NCBI GenBank assembly: GCA_031268145.1
Contig: JAIRXS010000012.1
Span: forward strand, 1 to 40,951
Reading direction: 5' to 3'
DNA from: Candidatus Endomicrobiellum siamense
Lineage (GTDB): Bacteria; Elusimicrobiota; Endomicrobiia; Endomicrobiales; Endomicrobiaceae
Length of the DNA: 40,951 nt
Shown here: positions 1-15,161 of the stretch, piece after piece
Numbering within the stretch: the stretch's first letter is position 1
Layout: each line of letters starts with the position of its first letter
Translations under genes and position numbers: made by a program
Notes under the pieces: model-generated
The model's database searches: none
Seen by the model: only the letters and a program-made list of their open reading frames with translations
What the model was told of the DNA's origin: nothing

Positions 1-132
1 GGTAGAGGACTTATTGAAGCTGGGTTTAACACTTCTTACAAAAACATTGGTATTGACCTTTCTGCAAAATATGCTGATGGTAAGGCTGGCAACTCCATGT
101 CTGGCTTGCTTAAGTTCTCTTTTAAAATTTAA
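1..132 (+). CDS. Autotransporter beta-barrel C-terminus (5' end outside window)
   Basis: Frame 1 reads 43 residues to a TAA at 130-132. They match the last 43 residues of the autotransporter ending at 15161: 37 of 43 residues and 114 of 132 bases are identical by my count. This is the final part of an outer-membrane beta-barrel, with alternating strands and an end in KFSFKI. The family is known for a C-terminal barrel that carries an N-terminal passenger to the surface. What the passenger is, and whether this copy also carries a repeat tract in its signal peptide, cannot be seen here. Confidence 0.85.
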   Translation, partial: GRGLIEAGFNTSYKNIGIDLSAKYADGKAGNSMSGLLKFSFKI

Positions 133-157
133 AAACAAATCCCACTTTTTCTTAAAA

Positions 158-193
158 CCTGACTTGACCATTACTAAAACTGGTCAAGTCAGG
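158..193. terminator. Perfect 13-bp hairpin, probable bidirectional terminator
   Basis: CCTGACTTGACCA at 158-170 pairs exactly with TGGTCAAGTCAGG at 181-193 around a 10-nt loop. It lies 25 bp past the autotransporter stop and 72 bp past the stop of the converging efflux operon. Read on the minus strand the stem is followed by TTTTAAG, read on the plus strand by no clear T run. It therefore fits best as a terminator for the minus-strand operon that may also serve the plus-strand gene. Confidence 0.7.
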
Positions 194-265
194 TACACAA
201 ATATAAAATAAAATATGAAAATGAGATTTTAAAACAAACAACTAAACATAGATAAATTACAGCTT

Positions 266-3200
266 TTATAACTCATCTTGGACGCTTACTACTTTTTCTT
301 CAATAGGAAAAATTCTCTGCGCATTTGTATTATTTCTCATACCTTTTGTAACAAGATAAACATATGGAACAAAAAATAATGCTAAAACTAAAGCAAAAGA
401 AAGTCCACCAACAACAGCTATAGCCATAGGCTGGTTTGTAGAGCCCCCGCTACCTCCAAGCCCAATAGCAAGTGGTATAAGGCCTGTAATTGTAGTAAGG
501 GTCGTCATAGTTATCGGTCTGACGTGATGAACTGTTACATCCACAACATTTTTCTTTAGAATTAGAATATCTGGTTTTTGGCCACCAATTTTTTTTTGCT
601 CTTCATCGTACATTATGTTAAACCTGTCTACCAATAAAATTGAAATATTTATAACGTTTCCCACAAGCATAATAAAACCCAACATAGAAATAGAATTTAT
701 AGATTGCCCTGTAACAAATAAAACAAAAGTTGCACCTACTACTCCAAGAGGAATTGCAGTCATAACTATTATAGGTTGGAATAAAGACTCAAATTCTGAA
801 GCTAAAATCATAAATATAATTATAACTCCTAGACCTAAAGCAAAAGAAACTTGTGTTAAAGCTTCTTTCATGGCAAGCATTTCTCCAGAAATAACACAAT
901 GGACTTTTTCATTATTATACTTAACATCCAATATACTCTGAATTTCTTTAACCGCTTTTGCAAAATCTCCTTTTATATTTGCTGAAAGTAAATAAGTTCT
1001 TTCTCCTTCAATCCTTTTTATAGAAGGTAGCGTTTTTACAAATTGAGGATTCGCAATTTGTTTTAATTGTATAGTCATACCCCAAGGAGAGTATGCTGTC
1101 ATCTCCATCACTTTACTAAGCTTATTTCTATCTTCTAAACGCATTCTAACTCTCACATCCATTTCATCATCTTTTCTTTTAAGTTTAGTGGCAACAAAGC
1201 CTTTTATAGCAGCCAAAGTCATAGCAGAAATATCCTGTGTTGAAAGACCAAACATTGAAGAACGTTCTCTATCTATAGTAAGCCTTAATTCTGGGACTTG
1301 GTCTGGAGGATCCAATTTTATGCCATAAAATTGTGGCATCTTATCCATGATTTCACGTATCTGATCTGCAGAGTCTTTTAAAATATCCAAATCGCTTCCC
1401 CTTATTTCTATTAAGAGTCCAGAAGATGCACCAACACCAGATCCAAAAAGTCCTTGTTGAGTCATAAATTCTGTTTCAAGGCCTTTAATATTCCATTTCC
1501 TTATCTCATTTGAAATATCTGCTACTAAAGTCTCTGTATCCTGCCCTTCAGGATATAGTCTGCCTATAATTCTAGATTGATAAGTGCTTAGAGATTCTAT
1601 TGAAGCCACACCTGAACTATCCCCTGTAGATCCAACACTTACTGAAATATCTTTTACTTCTTGGTATCTAGAGATTAATTTTTCTATTTTTTTTGATACA
1701 GAATTTGTTACTTCTAAAGGAGTATCTGGAGGCAAAATAACATTGCAAACAAAACGACGCTCATCAACTTTAGGCATAAAAGCTTTTGGAATTAACATAA
1801 AACAAACAACACCTAAAGCTGTATAAATTAAAATTATCAAAGTAACCTTACTTAAACTATAATCTAAAACTTTTCTAAAACTTGGCGCAAAATATTTATT
1901 AATTGTATCCATTCCAGCAGTAATAGACTGCTTTGATAAATCCGCAGTAAGACACAAACGAGGCACAAGAAAAAGTGCTGCAAATATAGAGGATATTAAG
2001 GAATATGTAATTGTTAAAGCAAGCTGTTTAAAAAGTTGGCCTATCATACCAGCCACAAAAACAAAAGGAATAAATATTGCAACAGACGTAAGTGTAGAAC
2101 TCATAATAGGAGCTATCAAGCTTTTTGTAGCTTCATAAATGGTTTCTTTCTTTGCAACACCTTTGAGTTTATGAAATGACATCAAAATATTTTCCAAAAC
2201 AACATTAGAATTATCTATAACCATACCTATACCTACAGTAAGCCCTCCAAGTGACATAGTATTAAGCGAAATGTCCCCAAAATACATAAGGCTTGTTGTA
2301 GAACATAAAGCAACTGGTATAGCTATATTAATTATTGTTGATGCCATAAAACTTTTCATAAAAAAGTATAAAAGTATAAAAGAAAGAAGTATGCCCTGTA
2401 TACCATTTGAATATAAATTTGCAAGAGATTCCTTAATAAAGTCAGATTGATCAGATGTAACTTTAATATCTACATCCTCTGGAAATTTTTCTTTTATCTC
2501 TTTGAGTTTTTTATGAACCGCCTCTGACAAATTAATTAAATTTGATCCAGACTGCTGATAAATACCAACTGAAATATTTTCTCTACTATTGTAACGAGAA
2601 TAACCTTTCCTATCTCTTAAAGATTCACTGACATCTGCAATATCTTTTAGAAAAACCACCTTACTACCAGAATCTTGAACTTCATTTTTAATTCTCTTAG
2701 AGCTTCTGACTCTATCGATATTGTTGTCTGTTTTAGAAAAAGACATGTTAGCAATGTCATCTACGCTTTGAAATTCCCCAACAGTTTTCACCAAATATTC
2801 GTGTTTACCTTCTTTGATTGTTCCTGCAGGATAAGTTATATTGGCATTTTCTAACGAGGTAATAACATCATTTATAGAAACTTGATTTGCAAGTAGTCTT
2901 CCTTTGTCTATCTCAACTAAAATTTCTTTTTCTTCTCCCCCTCTAAGCTCAACTTTTGCAACACCTTGGATACGCTCTAATTCATCTTTAATATTTCTCT
3001 TAGTCAGTCTTCGCAATTCTGCCATTTTCATATCTGATATATCGCCATCCTTATAACTTACAGAAAGCATCATAGCTTCAACTTGAGTTGGATTATATTT
3101 TAAAACAACAGGCTCCAAAGCGTCTTTTGGCAAACTTTCTTTTATTAAATCTATCTTTTCGCGCACGTCCATAGCGGCAAAGTCCATATTTACACCCCAT

Positions 3201-11259: not shown

Positions 11260-11305
11260 GTTTTACAAATATTTTTATACAACAACTGCAAAAAATATAC
11301 TCAAG

Positions 11306-11694
11306 TGGAGGTGGCGGGAATTGAACCCGCGTCCGAAAATGTTTCAGTAAGACCGCTACAGGTTTAGTTCGGAATTTTATCTTATTTATGGCGCTATCTC
11401 CGAACGAAACTACGCTATAAACCAGCACCGTTTAAATTTCACTTTAAATTGACGGTACAAACCATTTAAAGCTAACCTGCTCTTGTCGTTTTATCCTAAT
11501 AGCAGGCGTCAAAGGTAAAACGTAGCTACATTAAGCAGCTATTGGCATTGCGCCAAAACCCATAAAAGGTTTAACGCTTTGCATTGGAACGAATTTATCG
11601 TTGTTTATTTTTCGGTCGATTTTTACGGAGCCATCGACCAACTCCGACCTGCTGTCATTACTTAAGCCACTCCCGTCGAACCCTGTTCACCCCC
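11306..11694 (-). ncRNA. ssrA: tmRNA (trans-translation RNA)
   Basis: The 3' end is a tRNA-like TPsiC arm and acceptor (GACGCGGGTTCAATTCCCGC, then CACCTCC and a discriminator A at 11306). The 5' end GGGGGTGAACAGGGTTCGACGGG supplies the matching acceptor strand, ending at 11694. CCA is not encoded. Pseudoknot PK1 is visible at 11614-11646: CGGAG/CTCCG interlaced with GGTCGAT/ATCGACC. A tag reading frame follows it and stops with TAA at 11531-11533; it ends AMPIAA, a hydrophobic protease-recognition end. tmRNA with SmpB rescues stalled ribosomes. A TATATT at 11707-11712 could be its -10 box, inside the end of tadA. The 5' end lies in a run of 11 G where only five are needed. Confidence 0.95.
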
Positions 11695-12648: not shown

Positions 12649-12738
12649 AAAAATGATATTATATACTTCTATTTGAGTTAAAGAACAAGAGTTAAAATAT
12701 ATATAGCCGACAAAAGAAAAAAGCAAGGGAGGTAGCTA

Positions 12739-15161
12739 ATGTCAAATTATTTTAATCTTTTTAAAGCTTTTAAGGTACACCTTTTTAGTCTTGTCTTGTC
12801 TTGTCTTGTCTTGTCTTGTCTTGTCTTGTCTTGTCTTGTCTTGTCTTGTCTTGTCTTGTCTTAACTCCTAATTCTCTCATTGCTGGTCAAACTATTGATG
12901 TAACTACTACAAACCCTGGGCATCATATTGTAGGAAATGGAGATAGTGCTACCATGGGAAATCTTAATTTAATCTCATGGCCAGATGTATATACCCTTCC
13001 CAGTATAAATATTTCCACTTATAACACTGTAAATATTTCTAATGATGTCAACAATTTTTGGGGAATTTATGGCGCTCTTGCTAACCCTATAGTAGATAAC
13101 GATTCATCTACTTTAAAGTCTACCATTGAAGCTAGTTATAATATCGTAAATATCTCTTCTAACTGTATTTGTGATAATCTTATTGGCGCTTCTGTTCTTG
13201 GCGCTACTCAAAATGATAGTAGTATGTTATTACTTTCTTCAAATATTGACAATAGCACTTCTACCGTAAATCTCTTTAATAATATAGTAAATGTAAATGC
13301 CAATGTAGATACTCCCAATTTATTTGCTGCTCATGTATATTTAGATGCACCAAATAGAGCAACCCTAGGCACAACTTGGAATGTTAACCTAAATAATAAC
13401 TTGCTATCGTTTAATTCTCCCAGTCTTGTTGTTGCAAATAGTATTATTGCTGTTGCTGACTTAACAATAACAGGAGATTCTTACGAATTCTATCCTTTTA
13501 TTTCTTTGTCCAATAATACTCTTGAATTGAACTCTAACTTCACTAATACAAATTATTTACATTTAACTAATATTTCACTCTATAATTCCGACACAGTTCA
13601 CATTGATAGCATAACTGTAACTGGTAATAAACTCCTTGTTAAGGCTCCTGTAAATGTTTCTGATTGCCAAATATATGCTTATGAAATCAGCCAAAATGCC
13701 AAAGATAAAGCTTCTTATCTTAATATCTCCAACAATGTTGTTATAATCGATAATGTTAAAGCTGTAACGCTTGGCGGTATTTATAACTTTGACACCTTCG
13801 CTTTCAGTTTGCCTAATAATATCACTAACAACGATAATGTCCTTAATCTTGCCAACCAAGCTACTGACATTGAAATTGATTATAACAAACTTACTATGGC
13901 TAACTTTAATACTCATACTAGCACTCTTTTTGTTAACCTTGTTCACCTCGCTGGCGACGCCAAACTCTCCATGATCAATAATCCTAGCTATCTTGAAAAC
14001 ACTCAAACTTCTTTTGAACTTGGTCTTAACAATAAGTCTTTAATCTTTACCTTTGACCCATTTATTGTTCATACTTCTGATGATAAACCCGATGTCAATA
14101 ATCCTATTCCTGTTCCCACCCCTGACCCTGACTCCCCTACTCTACTCCAACCTCTTAACCTTTACTCCGAGACTGTCGTTATTCCTCAAGCTGGCGCTGC
14201 TAATGTTTCTTTCATTATCCAAGGTTTAGACCTCATCATGGATGAAGGTCTCTTTTCTGCTAGAAACCAAGCTAAAGCTTCCTCCCACAACAATGAGCCT
14301 TTCTTCTCTTCTAAAGGTCTTTCTCCTTTTGCCGCTTTCTCTACTTCTAAAAACAAATTCTTCACTTCTAATACTAACGACATTGATGTCAACGCTTTCT
14401 CTATCATCGCTGGTCTTGCTAAAGATTCTTCTATCTTTAACCACAATCTCACTCTTGGCTTATTTTTCGAACATGGTCAAGGTAAATATGAAACTTCTAC
14501 CTTCTTCCAAGATTCTCAAGATGATTGGACTGTTCTTGGCAATGGCAACGCTTACTATAATGGCGGCGGTATTCTTGCTAGATTAGACCTTGTCAACAAT
14601 ATCTATTTTGACGCTTCTGCTAGACTTGGGAATGTTTCTTCTGATTACTTCACTTCTGACCTATCTAAAATTTCTAGTTTTGGTTTTGACTACTCCACTA
14701 CTTATTACGGCGCTCATGGCGGACTTGGATATCTTCTTAATCTCAATGACAACTTAGGTTTAGACTTCTCTGGTAAATACTTCTTTACCAATCTTGCTGG
14801 CAAAAACAATGTTGAACTTCCTGGCACTTACCACGCTAACTTTAAAACTGAATCTATTCAAAAAGTTAAACTCGGCGTAAAAATACAACATTTTATTTCT
14901 GATAAACATAACTCCCAAAGCATTTACTTTGGAGGAAGTTTTGAATATGAACCTGCTAACAAGATTAAAGTTGACGCTACCAAAACTGGTTTTCTAGATA
15001 CTCCTATTGACACGCCTGAGCTTGGCGGAGGTAGAGGTCTTGTTGAAGCTGGGTTTAACACTTCTTACAAAAACATCGGCGTTGACCTTTCTGCTAAATA
15101 TTCTGACGGTAAAGCTGGTAACTCTATGGCTGGGATGCTTAAGTTTTCCTATAAGATTTAA
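12739..15161 (+). CDS. Phase-variable autotransporter, OFF as written (frameshift within GTCTT repeats)
   Basis: The ATG at 12739 has an excellent ribosome binding site (GGGAGGT) and starts a signal peptide with a Lys-containing n-region. Fifteen GTCTT pentamers (12788-12862) then encode the hydrophobic core as LVLSC repeats. From this ATG the frame meets TAA at 12862-12864. The remaining open frame (12801-15161) has no other start with a ribosome binding site, and stops in it at 12753, 12762, 12771 and 12786 rule out an upstream one. With 14 copies the product would be 805 residues, with 17 copies 810. After a cleavage region (NSLIAG) comes an Asn-rich beta-helix-like passenger, a Pro-Asp-rich linker (PIPVPTPDPDSP) and a barrel of roughly 280 residues ending KFSYKI. 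The passenger's target is unknown. Confidence 0.85.
12788..12862 (+). repeat. Pentanucleotide microsatellite, 15 perfect copies of GTCTT
   Basis: The 75-base tract has no interruption and lies in the signal-peptide codons of the autotransporter. Because 5 and 3 share no factor, every frame encodes the same five-residue cycle (L-V-L-S-C). Change of one copy shifts the downstream frame by two bases. The copy number here leaves the gene out of frame. Confidence 0.97.

Follow-up and report, generated by a model that had tools for sequence, protein, structure and literature searches.

How can a predicted autotransporter be made from a gene whose start codon lies in one reading frame and whose long coding frame lies in another, with a run of identical five-base units between the two? 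The locus that raises this question belongs to a draft genome of Candidatus Endomicrobiellum siamense (1,259,240 bases, 47 contigs, 94.9% complete). The window, as we call the whole stretch of DNA that was analysed, is contig C16 of this genome (40,951 bases, 30.0% GC). Repeat-driven phase variation of surface proteins is mostly discussed for pathogens and commensals of animals, as a form of immune escape. An earlier note on the window had described the run as an Opa-like switch in the signal peptide of an autotransporter, caught in the OFF state. Our answer keeps much of this reading and places it in a larger setting: the GTCTT array very probably acts as a switch for phase variation at the level of translation, placed in the signal peptide encoded by one gene of a multigene autotransporter family.

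The array stands out clearly from its surroundings (table 1). Tandem Repeats Finder, run on the window, gives its 15.0 perfect copies a score of 150 (the runner-up row reaches 68), and it is the window's sole perfect array with at least four copies of a 4–9 base unit. In 200 base shuffles of the window, pentamer arrays reach at most 3.6 copies. The array follows an ATG with a strong ribosome binding site and lies in the signal-peptide region, as had been reported. The ATG frame translates as MSNYFNLFKAFKVHLFS(LVLSC)n (its start is given as MSNYFNLFKAFKVHLFSLVLSCL...), enters the array at codon 17 and ends in the TAA that the earlier note had named, which both sequence and translation bear out. 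Downstream, a long frame out of phase with the ATG stays open for 765 codons, or for 786 residues when counted from a TTG inside the array. The note's autotransporter in another frame is borne out by position and by homology, but its length of 780 residues has to be corrected to 765 after the array. Because a TAG closes the long frame directly before the array, this frame offers no start ahead of the passenger other than the TTG codons of the array, and no binding site for them was seen in or before it; the claim that this frame has no upstream start with a binding site is thus upheld. With a leader of 49 bases and a unit of five, the arithmetic agrees that 14 or 17 copies would join the two frames. 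As the unit has five bases and no frame of the array contains a stop, every frame gives a hydrophobic stretch, and the copy number could vary with the signal peptide left intact. Elsewhere in the window lies a tmRNA (11303–11694, minus strand; Rfam RF00023, 169 bits), which ARAGORN did not report; a tRNA scan of the window found no tRNA.

Table 1. Features of the switch locus and of the adjoining family member in the window.
Feature	Position	Strand	Basis and remarks
Ribosome binding site GGGAGG	12727–12732	+	Six bases separate the site from ATG 12739; sequence
Leader: start codon and signal-peptide n-region MSNYFNLFKAFKVHLFS	12739–12787	+	49 bases up to the array
TAG closing the autotransporter frame, directly 5′ of the array	12786–12788	+	Sequence; the frame is open over 790 codons
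(GTCTT)15, proposed slippage switch	12788–12862	+	Hydrophobic repeat (VLSCL)n in all three frames
TAA terminating the ATG frame at 15 copies	12862–12864	+	Sequence, translation
End of signal peptide (TPNSLIAG) and passenger domain	12864–14150	+	Out of phase with the ATG; barrel boundary approximate
Predicted autotransporter β-barrel domain	14151–15158	+	PF03797 in 10 of 28 aligned barrels; best tblastn E 2e-11; stop 15159–15161
3′ end of another family member	1–129	+	Contig begins inside the gene; 43 aa align to the window protein at 86% identity

What the long frame encodes is best seen through its homologs. Searched by itself, the window protein has no Pfam match at 0.001 (up to E 10 there is only one, unrelated, at 0.16) and no NCBIfam match, and a PDB profile search returned four weak matches (best E 0.47). 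When barrels are aligned, 10 of the 28 match PF03797 (Autotransporter, best 1.3e-15), four match OMP_b-brl and five TIGR01414. A tblastn search of plasmids with the window protein hits annotated autotransporters in six of the seven records listed, with the best match in Selenomonas ruminantium at 27.8% identity. The C-terminal autotransporter beta-domain of the classical type (Va) is therefore recognized through the PF03797 matches of the homologs and through tblastn, and the window product is predicted, by homology, to be an autotransporter. Hydrophobic leaders, read by eye, are found in the window gene and its homologs, and about 430 residues separate leader and barrel. There is no Opa family among the Pfam matches; by these comparisons the product is not an Opa protein.

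The 41 genomes compared come from one genus, which is presumably the Endomicrobiellum of Mies et al. 2024 (PMC11257099). There, E. trichonymphae is placed in the same genus, and Endomicrobiellum is described as termite-gut flagellate endosymbionts with reduced genomes averaging 1.13 Mb and 32.3% GC. One genome of the genus (G040) contains a 5,752-base contig that matches plasmid NZ_AP017461.1, which belongs to Candidatus Endomicrobium trichonymphae from Trichonympha agilis, at 100% identity from end to end; neither the GTCTT and CTCTT patterns nor the window protein find a match in G040. UvrA is 89% identical to that of our genome in five genomes of the genus (G011, G006, G016, G001 and G005) and 65–81% identical in 27 further ones, while eight of the 41 give no match at the threshold used. 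The LysS encoded in the window shares 84% identity with its counterpart in Endomicrobium sp. Gx485_bin123 (G041; residues 120–487), compared with 33–51% for 12 other genomes reached through loci. For Gx485_bin123, G041 gives the same places as G064, which belongs to the same family as the window species. No 16S gene was found in our genome. By its relatives, the window species probably lives inside a flagellate. Endomicrobium phylogenies are reported to follow those of their hosts, and horizontal acquisition between protists is reported for surface-bound bacteria (PMC7228121).

Within its own genome the window gene is one of several. GTCTT arrays of at least four copies occur at eight places (C3, C11, C16 in the window, C22 start, C22 end, C27, C32 and C34), and a near-identical leader ending in FKAFKVHLFS precedes seven of them; the array at the start of C22 has no upstream part, since the contig begins there. 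A 71-base leader query also finds eight places, namely the seven with arrays and C28, which is cut by the contig end before any array, at 92–100% identity over 39–71 aligned bases. The GGAGG site is kept in seven aligned leaders of this genome, as well as in two members (C30 and C17) from the related genome G006. Further pieces of the family end or begin contigs: C1 and C28 finish with 3′ ends, C18, C17, C16, C11, C34 and C40 start with them, and C4 and C24 start with passenger pieces.

Leaders so similar could also be read as a site of recombination, where leader and array together would mainly serve to swap passengers between members, with frame switching secondary. The identity of the leaders suits such a site, as do seven 3′ ends that are 85–92% identical to the window's at the protein level (C28, C18, C17, C16 start, C11, C34 and C40), a C22 passenger start, the only one of this genome that can be aligned, at just 22% identity to the window's, and the existence of leaderless fragments. 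We nevertheless consider it unlikely as the main role, because a site of this kind has no need of a frame-shifting unit. Moreover, recombination and switching are not mutually exclusive; Opa diversity, too, is reported to stem largely from recombination (PMC3960869).

The switch reading also draws support from sister species. Barrel homologs are present in 21 of the 41 genomes of the genus and a profile of the passenger N-terminus matches seven (our own included). The other 20 genomes, that of E. trichonymphae among them, have no barrel match, and the family is therefore not general in the genus. Five genes of G011 carry (CTCTT)n at the homologous place, with 22 (C2), 15 (C21), 13 (C24), 17 (C35) and 16 copies (C39), and the array encodes the hydrophobic repeat LLFSS. 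The earlier note had asked for copy numbers in related genomes, and these are not constant. C24 and C2 are in frame and the other three are out: C24 has 33 codons of leader and array followed by 520 in frame to the contig edge, and C2 is visible only to seven codons past its array. Three leader-bearing members were found in G006: C30 with (CTCTT)4, in frame; C27, whose six copies leave it out of frame and whose ribosome binding site is poor; and C17, whose leader (MSNCF...KAFK...LTP) is free of any array. At the inspected homologs of G001, G005 and G016, which cover a subset of the 5′ ends, no arrays were found. Among full-length relatives of the window protein in the genus, the closest (G001:C24, 40% identical) has a plain signal peptide. 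Taken together, the array-free and four-copy leaders of G006 and the plain signal peptide of G001 indicate that the array occupies the hydrophobic core of the signal peptide. The units of the two species, GTCTT and CTCTT, differ by one base in homologous genes.

Several side results of this comparison deserve mention. In G006, seven pieces of passenger (L195, L200, L206, L209, L211, L214 and L215) are leaderless, short or broken; they may be either pseudogenes or silent copies for recombination. The same genome has 10 copies of a seven-base unit, TGGTCTC (C7; L156, 3553–3622), roughly 400 bases before the start of an autotransporter homolog of 931 codons (353–3145, minus strand). A count of GTCTT in two of the 41 genomes of the genus had at first pointed to an oddity of a single genome, an idea that was rejected; the second genome, G035, has GTCTT and CTCTT arrays whose flanks are different and has no match to the passenger profile. 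A five-copy CTCTT match at G001:C21 was also set aside, as its flanks look like the antisense of a barrel. A degenerate leader pattern has no match in viral contigs, and tblastn found no match in phages at 1e-5. Finally, both wrong frames stop within two codons after the window array, as they do at 2.7% of the positions of its own coding frame, and within four codons after the array in G011, as at 12.6% of positions. These early stops were dropped as evidence for a switch, since the loci in question are homologs of each other and a value of 12.6% is nothing unusual.

Copy number can be turned into frame only where both flanks are present. The fully flanked arrays of our genome, with a leader and at least 19 bases downstream, have 15 (window), 19 (C3), 15 (C32) and 15 (C34) copies, and all four are out of frame, an outcome with a chance of about 0.2 if one third were in frame. 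Across our genome, G011 and G006, three of 11 arrays (at least four copies, both flanks) are in frame. Excluded from these counts were C11, C22 end and C27 of our genome, which break off within the array at a contig end, C22 start, which lacks a leader, C28, in which no array was seen, the window species' C4, C24 and C43, and leaderless or broken N-terminal matches in G001, G005, G006, G010, G011:C47 and G016. The frame at the start of C22 ends 76 codons after the array, and at least one family member is therefore truncated.

These numbers bear on a quite improbable account, that of a neutral microsatellite in decaying genes, in which genome erosion let repeats grow in genes no longer needed. 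The four out-of-frame arrays, the truncated member at C22, the broken fragments of G006 and the reduced genomes of the genus (PMC11257099) would all agree with decay. Yet the window frame is intact over 765 codons, the arrays are perfect, in-frame members exist in G011 and G006, and all eight GTCTT arrays of the genome sit at one place of one family (C22 start by its downstream side only). In addition, the 3′ end of the window gene gives dN/dS values of 0.07–0.35 against seven paralog pieces of the same genome, over short stretches of 38–125 codons. Among other pieces of this genome the ratio rises to 0.64 (C1–C24, where C24 looks damaged). These values would fit a maintained gene, for stretches that are short and mostly barrel.

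A very improbable account is that the copy numbers, and hence the OFF state, are a product of short-read assembly of near-identical paralogs. At least 18 of the 94 contig ends fall in the autotransporter family, with array or leader ends at C3, C11, both ends of C22, C27, C32, C34 and the start of C28. This is as expected if near-identical copies break short-read assembly, and it means that exact copy numbers carry assembly uncertainty. The assembly breaks within arrays at C11, C22 (both ends) and C27, and the recurrence of exactly 15 copies in three of the four fully flanked arrays may be an assembly effect. On the other side, both flanks of the window array lie in one contig, an error in the exact number would leave the array, its position and its approximate length untouched, and the same design recurs in a second genome (G011). 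The OFF state described in the earlier note is therefore retained in one sense, as the array is out of frame at 15 copies, but it describes no more than a draft-assembly consensus. More improbable still is that the protein is made at any copy number, by an internal start or by ribosomal frameshifting within the repeat: TTG codons recur in the array and an ATG of the long frame, at 12954, is preceded by GGAGA at a distance of 10 bases, but the long frame is closed by the TAG before the array, shows no binding site in or before it, and from ATG 12954 would yield a product without a signal peptide.

None of these accounts (recombination site, decay, assembly artefact or internal start) fits the comparative data as well as a switch. 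The earlier proposal of slipped-strand switching in the signal peptide gains support from the copy-number differences among paralogs and between sister species, and a 5′ repeat whose unit is not a multiple of three, with homologs in and out of frame, would make the locus a simple-sequence contingency locus. The proposed mechanism runs as follows. Slippage during replication would add or remove five-base units. In one copy-number class out of three, the ribosome would pass from the leader into passenger and barrel, and the protein would presumably be exported and displayed; in the other two it would meet a stop a few codons past the array and no protein would result. As the array is hydrophobic in every frame, changes of its length would be tolerated by the signal peptide. 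With several members switching independently, a clonal population would carry a shifting mix of surface proteins. Slippage within populations, expression and surface exposure are thus expected features of this model, and contact with the protist host or escape from phages is its possible role. Weighing against a switch are the four out of four fully flanked arrays out of frame, the truncation at C22 and the many broken pieces of G006.

If the GTCTT array is such a switch, what would a multigene repertoire bring to a genus of termite-flagellate symbionts whose host is a single cell? Among the candidate gains are the ability to recognize new host cells, to be tolerated within the cell and to escape phages. 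A wider picture can be drawn, which we hold tentatively and with slightly less than even confidence. A lineage of protist endosymbionts with reduced genomes may run an Opa-style repertoire of independently switching surface proteins, directed at the variation of unicellular hosts or at phages rather than at animal immunity; the unit would have changed between sister species (GTCTT versus CTCTT), so that the switch either evolved twice or was rewritten with its function kept. The family also offers a natural experiment on the origin of a switch, with related genes that have no array, four copies or 13–22 copies, and two units.

Arrays were noticed elsewhere as well. In Endomicrobium Gx485_bin123, GTCTT/AAGAC arrays with similar flanks lie at L064 (5621–5680), L066 (1162–1206), L152 (2607–2646) and L153 (1–85). 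Those of L064, L066 and L152 are located about 195–255 bases upstream of small lipoprotein-like genes, no frame of more than 90 codons crosses them, and they are possibly promoter-type switches. In another genus of the family (G057), a 16-copy array (L150, 2715–2794) lies about 90 bases upstream of an 874-codon gene (3–2624, minus strand) that seems to begin with a signal peptide. Further afield, a Desulfomonile MAG (L058, L065, L069, L075 and L079) and other deltaproteobacterial MAGs (L071, L077 and L078) have, at several places, arrays of 5–11 GTCTT copies whose flanks are similar; most of the Desulfomonile arrays adjoin a GGAGG-like site on the other strand, and these arrays possibly mark another switched family. 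A Synergistaceae MAG (Gx485_bin65) has (GTCTT)6 in a signal peptide (L063, reverse complement 2281–2310), in a gene whose frame stays open with the array over 510 codons, up to where the stretch ends, and whose translation reads like an OppA-type binding protein. By the Gx485 series name that it shares with an Endomicrobium MAG, it probably comes from a termite gut. The likeness to our array lies in the unit and in its place in a signal peptide, while copy number (six), frame (in), gene and phylum are different.

The earlier note knew of no description of such a switch in this lineage, and our literature searches agree: they turned up no work on phase variation or on autotransporters in Endomicrobia, with subscription journals largely outside their scope, and none on slipped-strand phase variation in obligate endosymbionts. 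In the available part of a paper that mentions phase variation (PMC3711429), Elusimicrobia appear only in a table of genome counts. The mechanism is already known in kind, both from opa and from the AAGC switch of AutB. As far as searched, the novelty lies in this family of genes, in the lineage and in a unit that has changed between sister species.

The nearest precedent found for an autotransporter is AutB of N. meningitidis, where AAGC repeats lie in the signal-sequence DNA and are out of frame in most isolates (PMC5118866). The autB/autA genes share with our family both the autotransporter product and the place of the repeats inside the signal-sequence DNA, but their unit is a tetranucleotide, in contrast to the pentanucleotide found here, and our genome alone holds at least eight leader copies. 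The opa genes of Neisseria have pentameric CTCTT repeats in the leader, and slipped-strand mispairing shifts their frame at about 1e-3 per cell per generation (PMC3960869). In both systems a pentanucleotide array sits in the signal-peptide region just after the start, the genes form a multigene outer-membrane family in which the number of copies decides whether a member is in frame, and the unit of G011, which also occurs in G006, is CTCTT itself. The label ‘Opa-like’ thus holds for the mode of working and for the unit of the sister species, but not for the product, which is predicted to be an autotransporter, nor for the window unit, which is GTCTT. The phylum (Elusimicrobiota) is different as well, and switching is here proposed from sequence. 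With these differences, the frame-switch trick of Neisseria Opa appears to recur in an unrelated phylum, in a relative of the endosymbionts of termite-gut protists.
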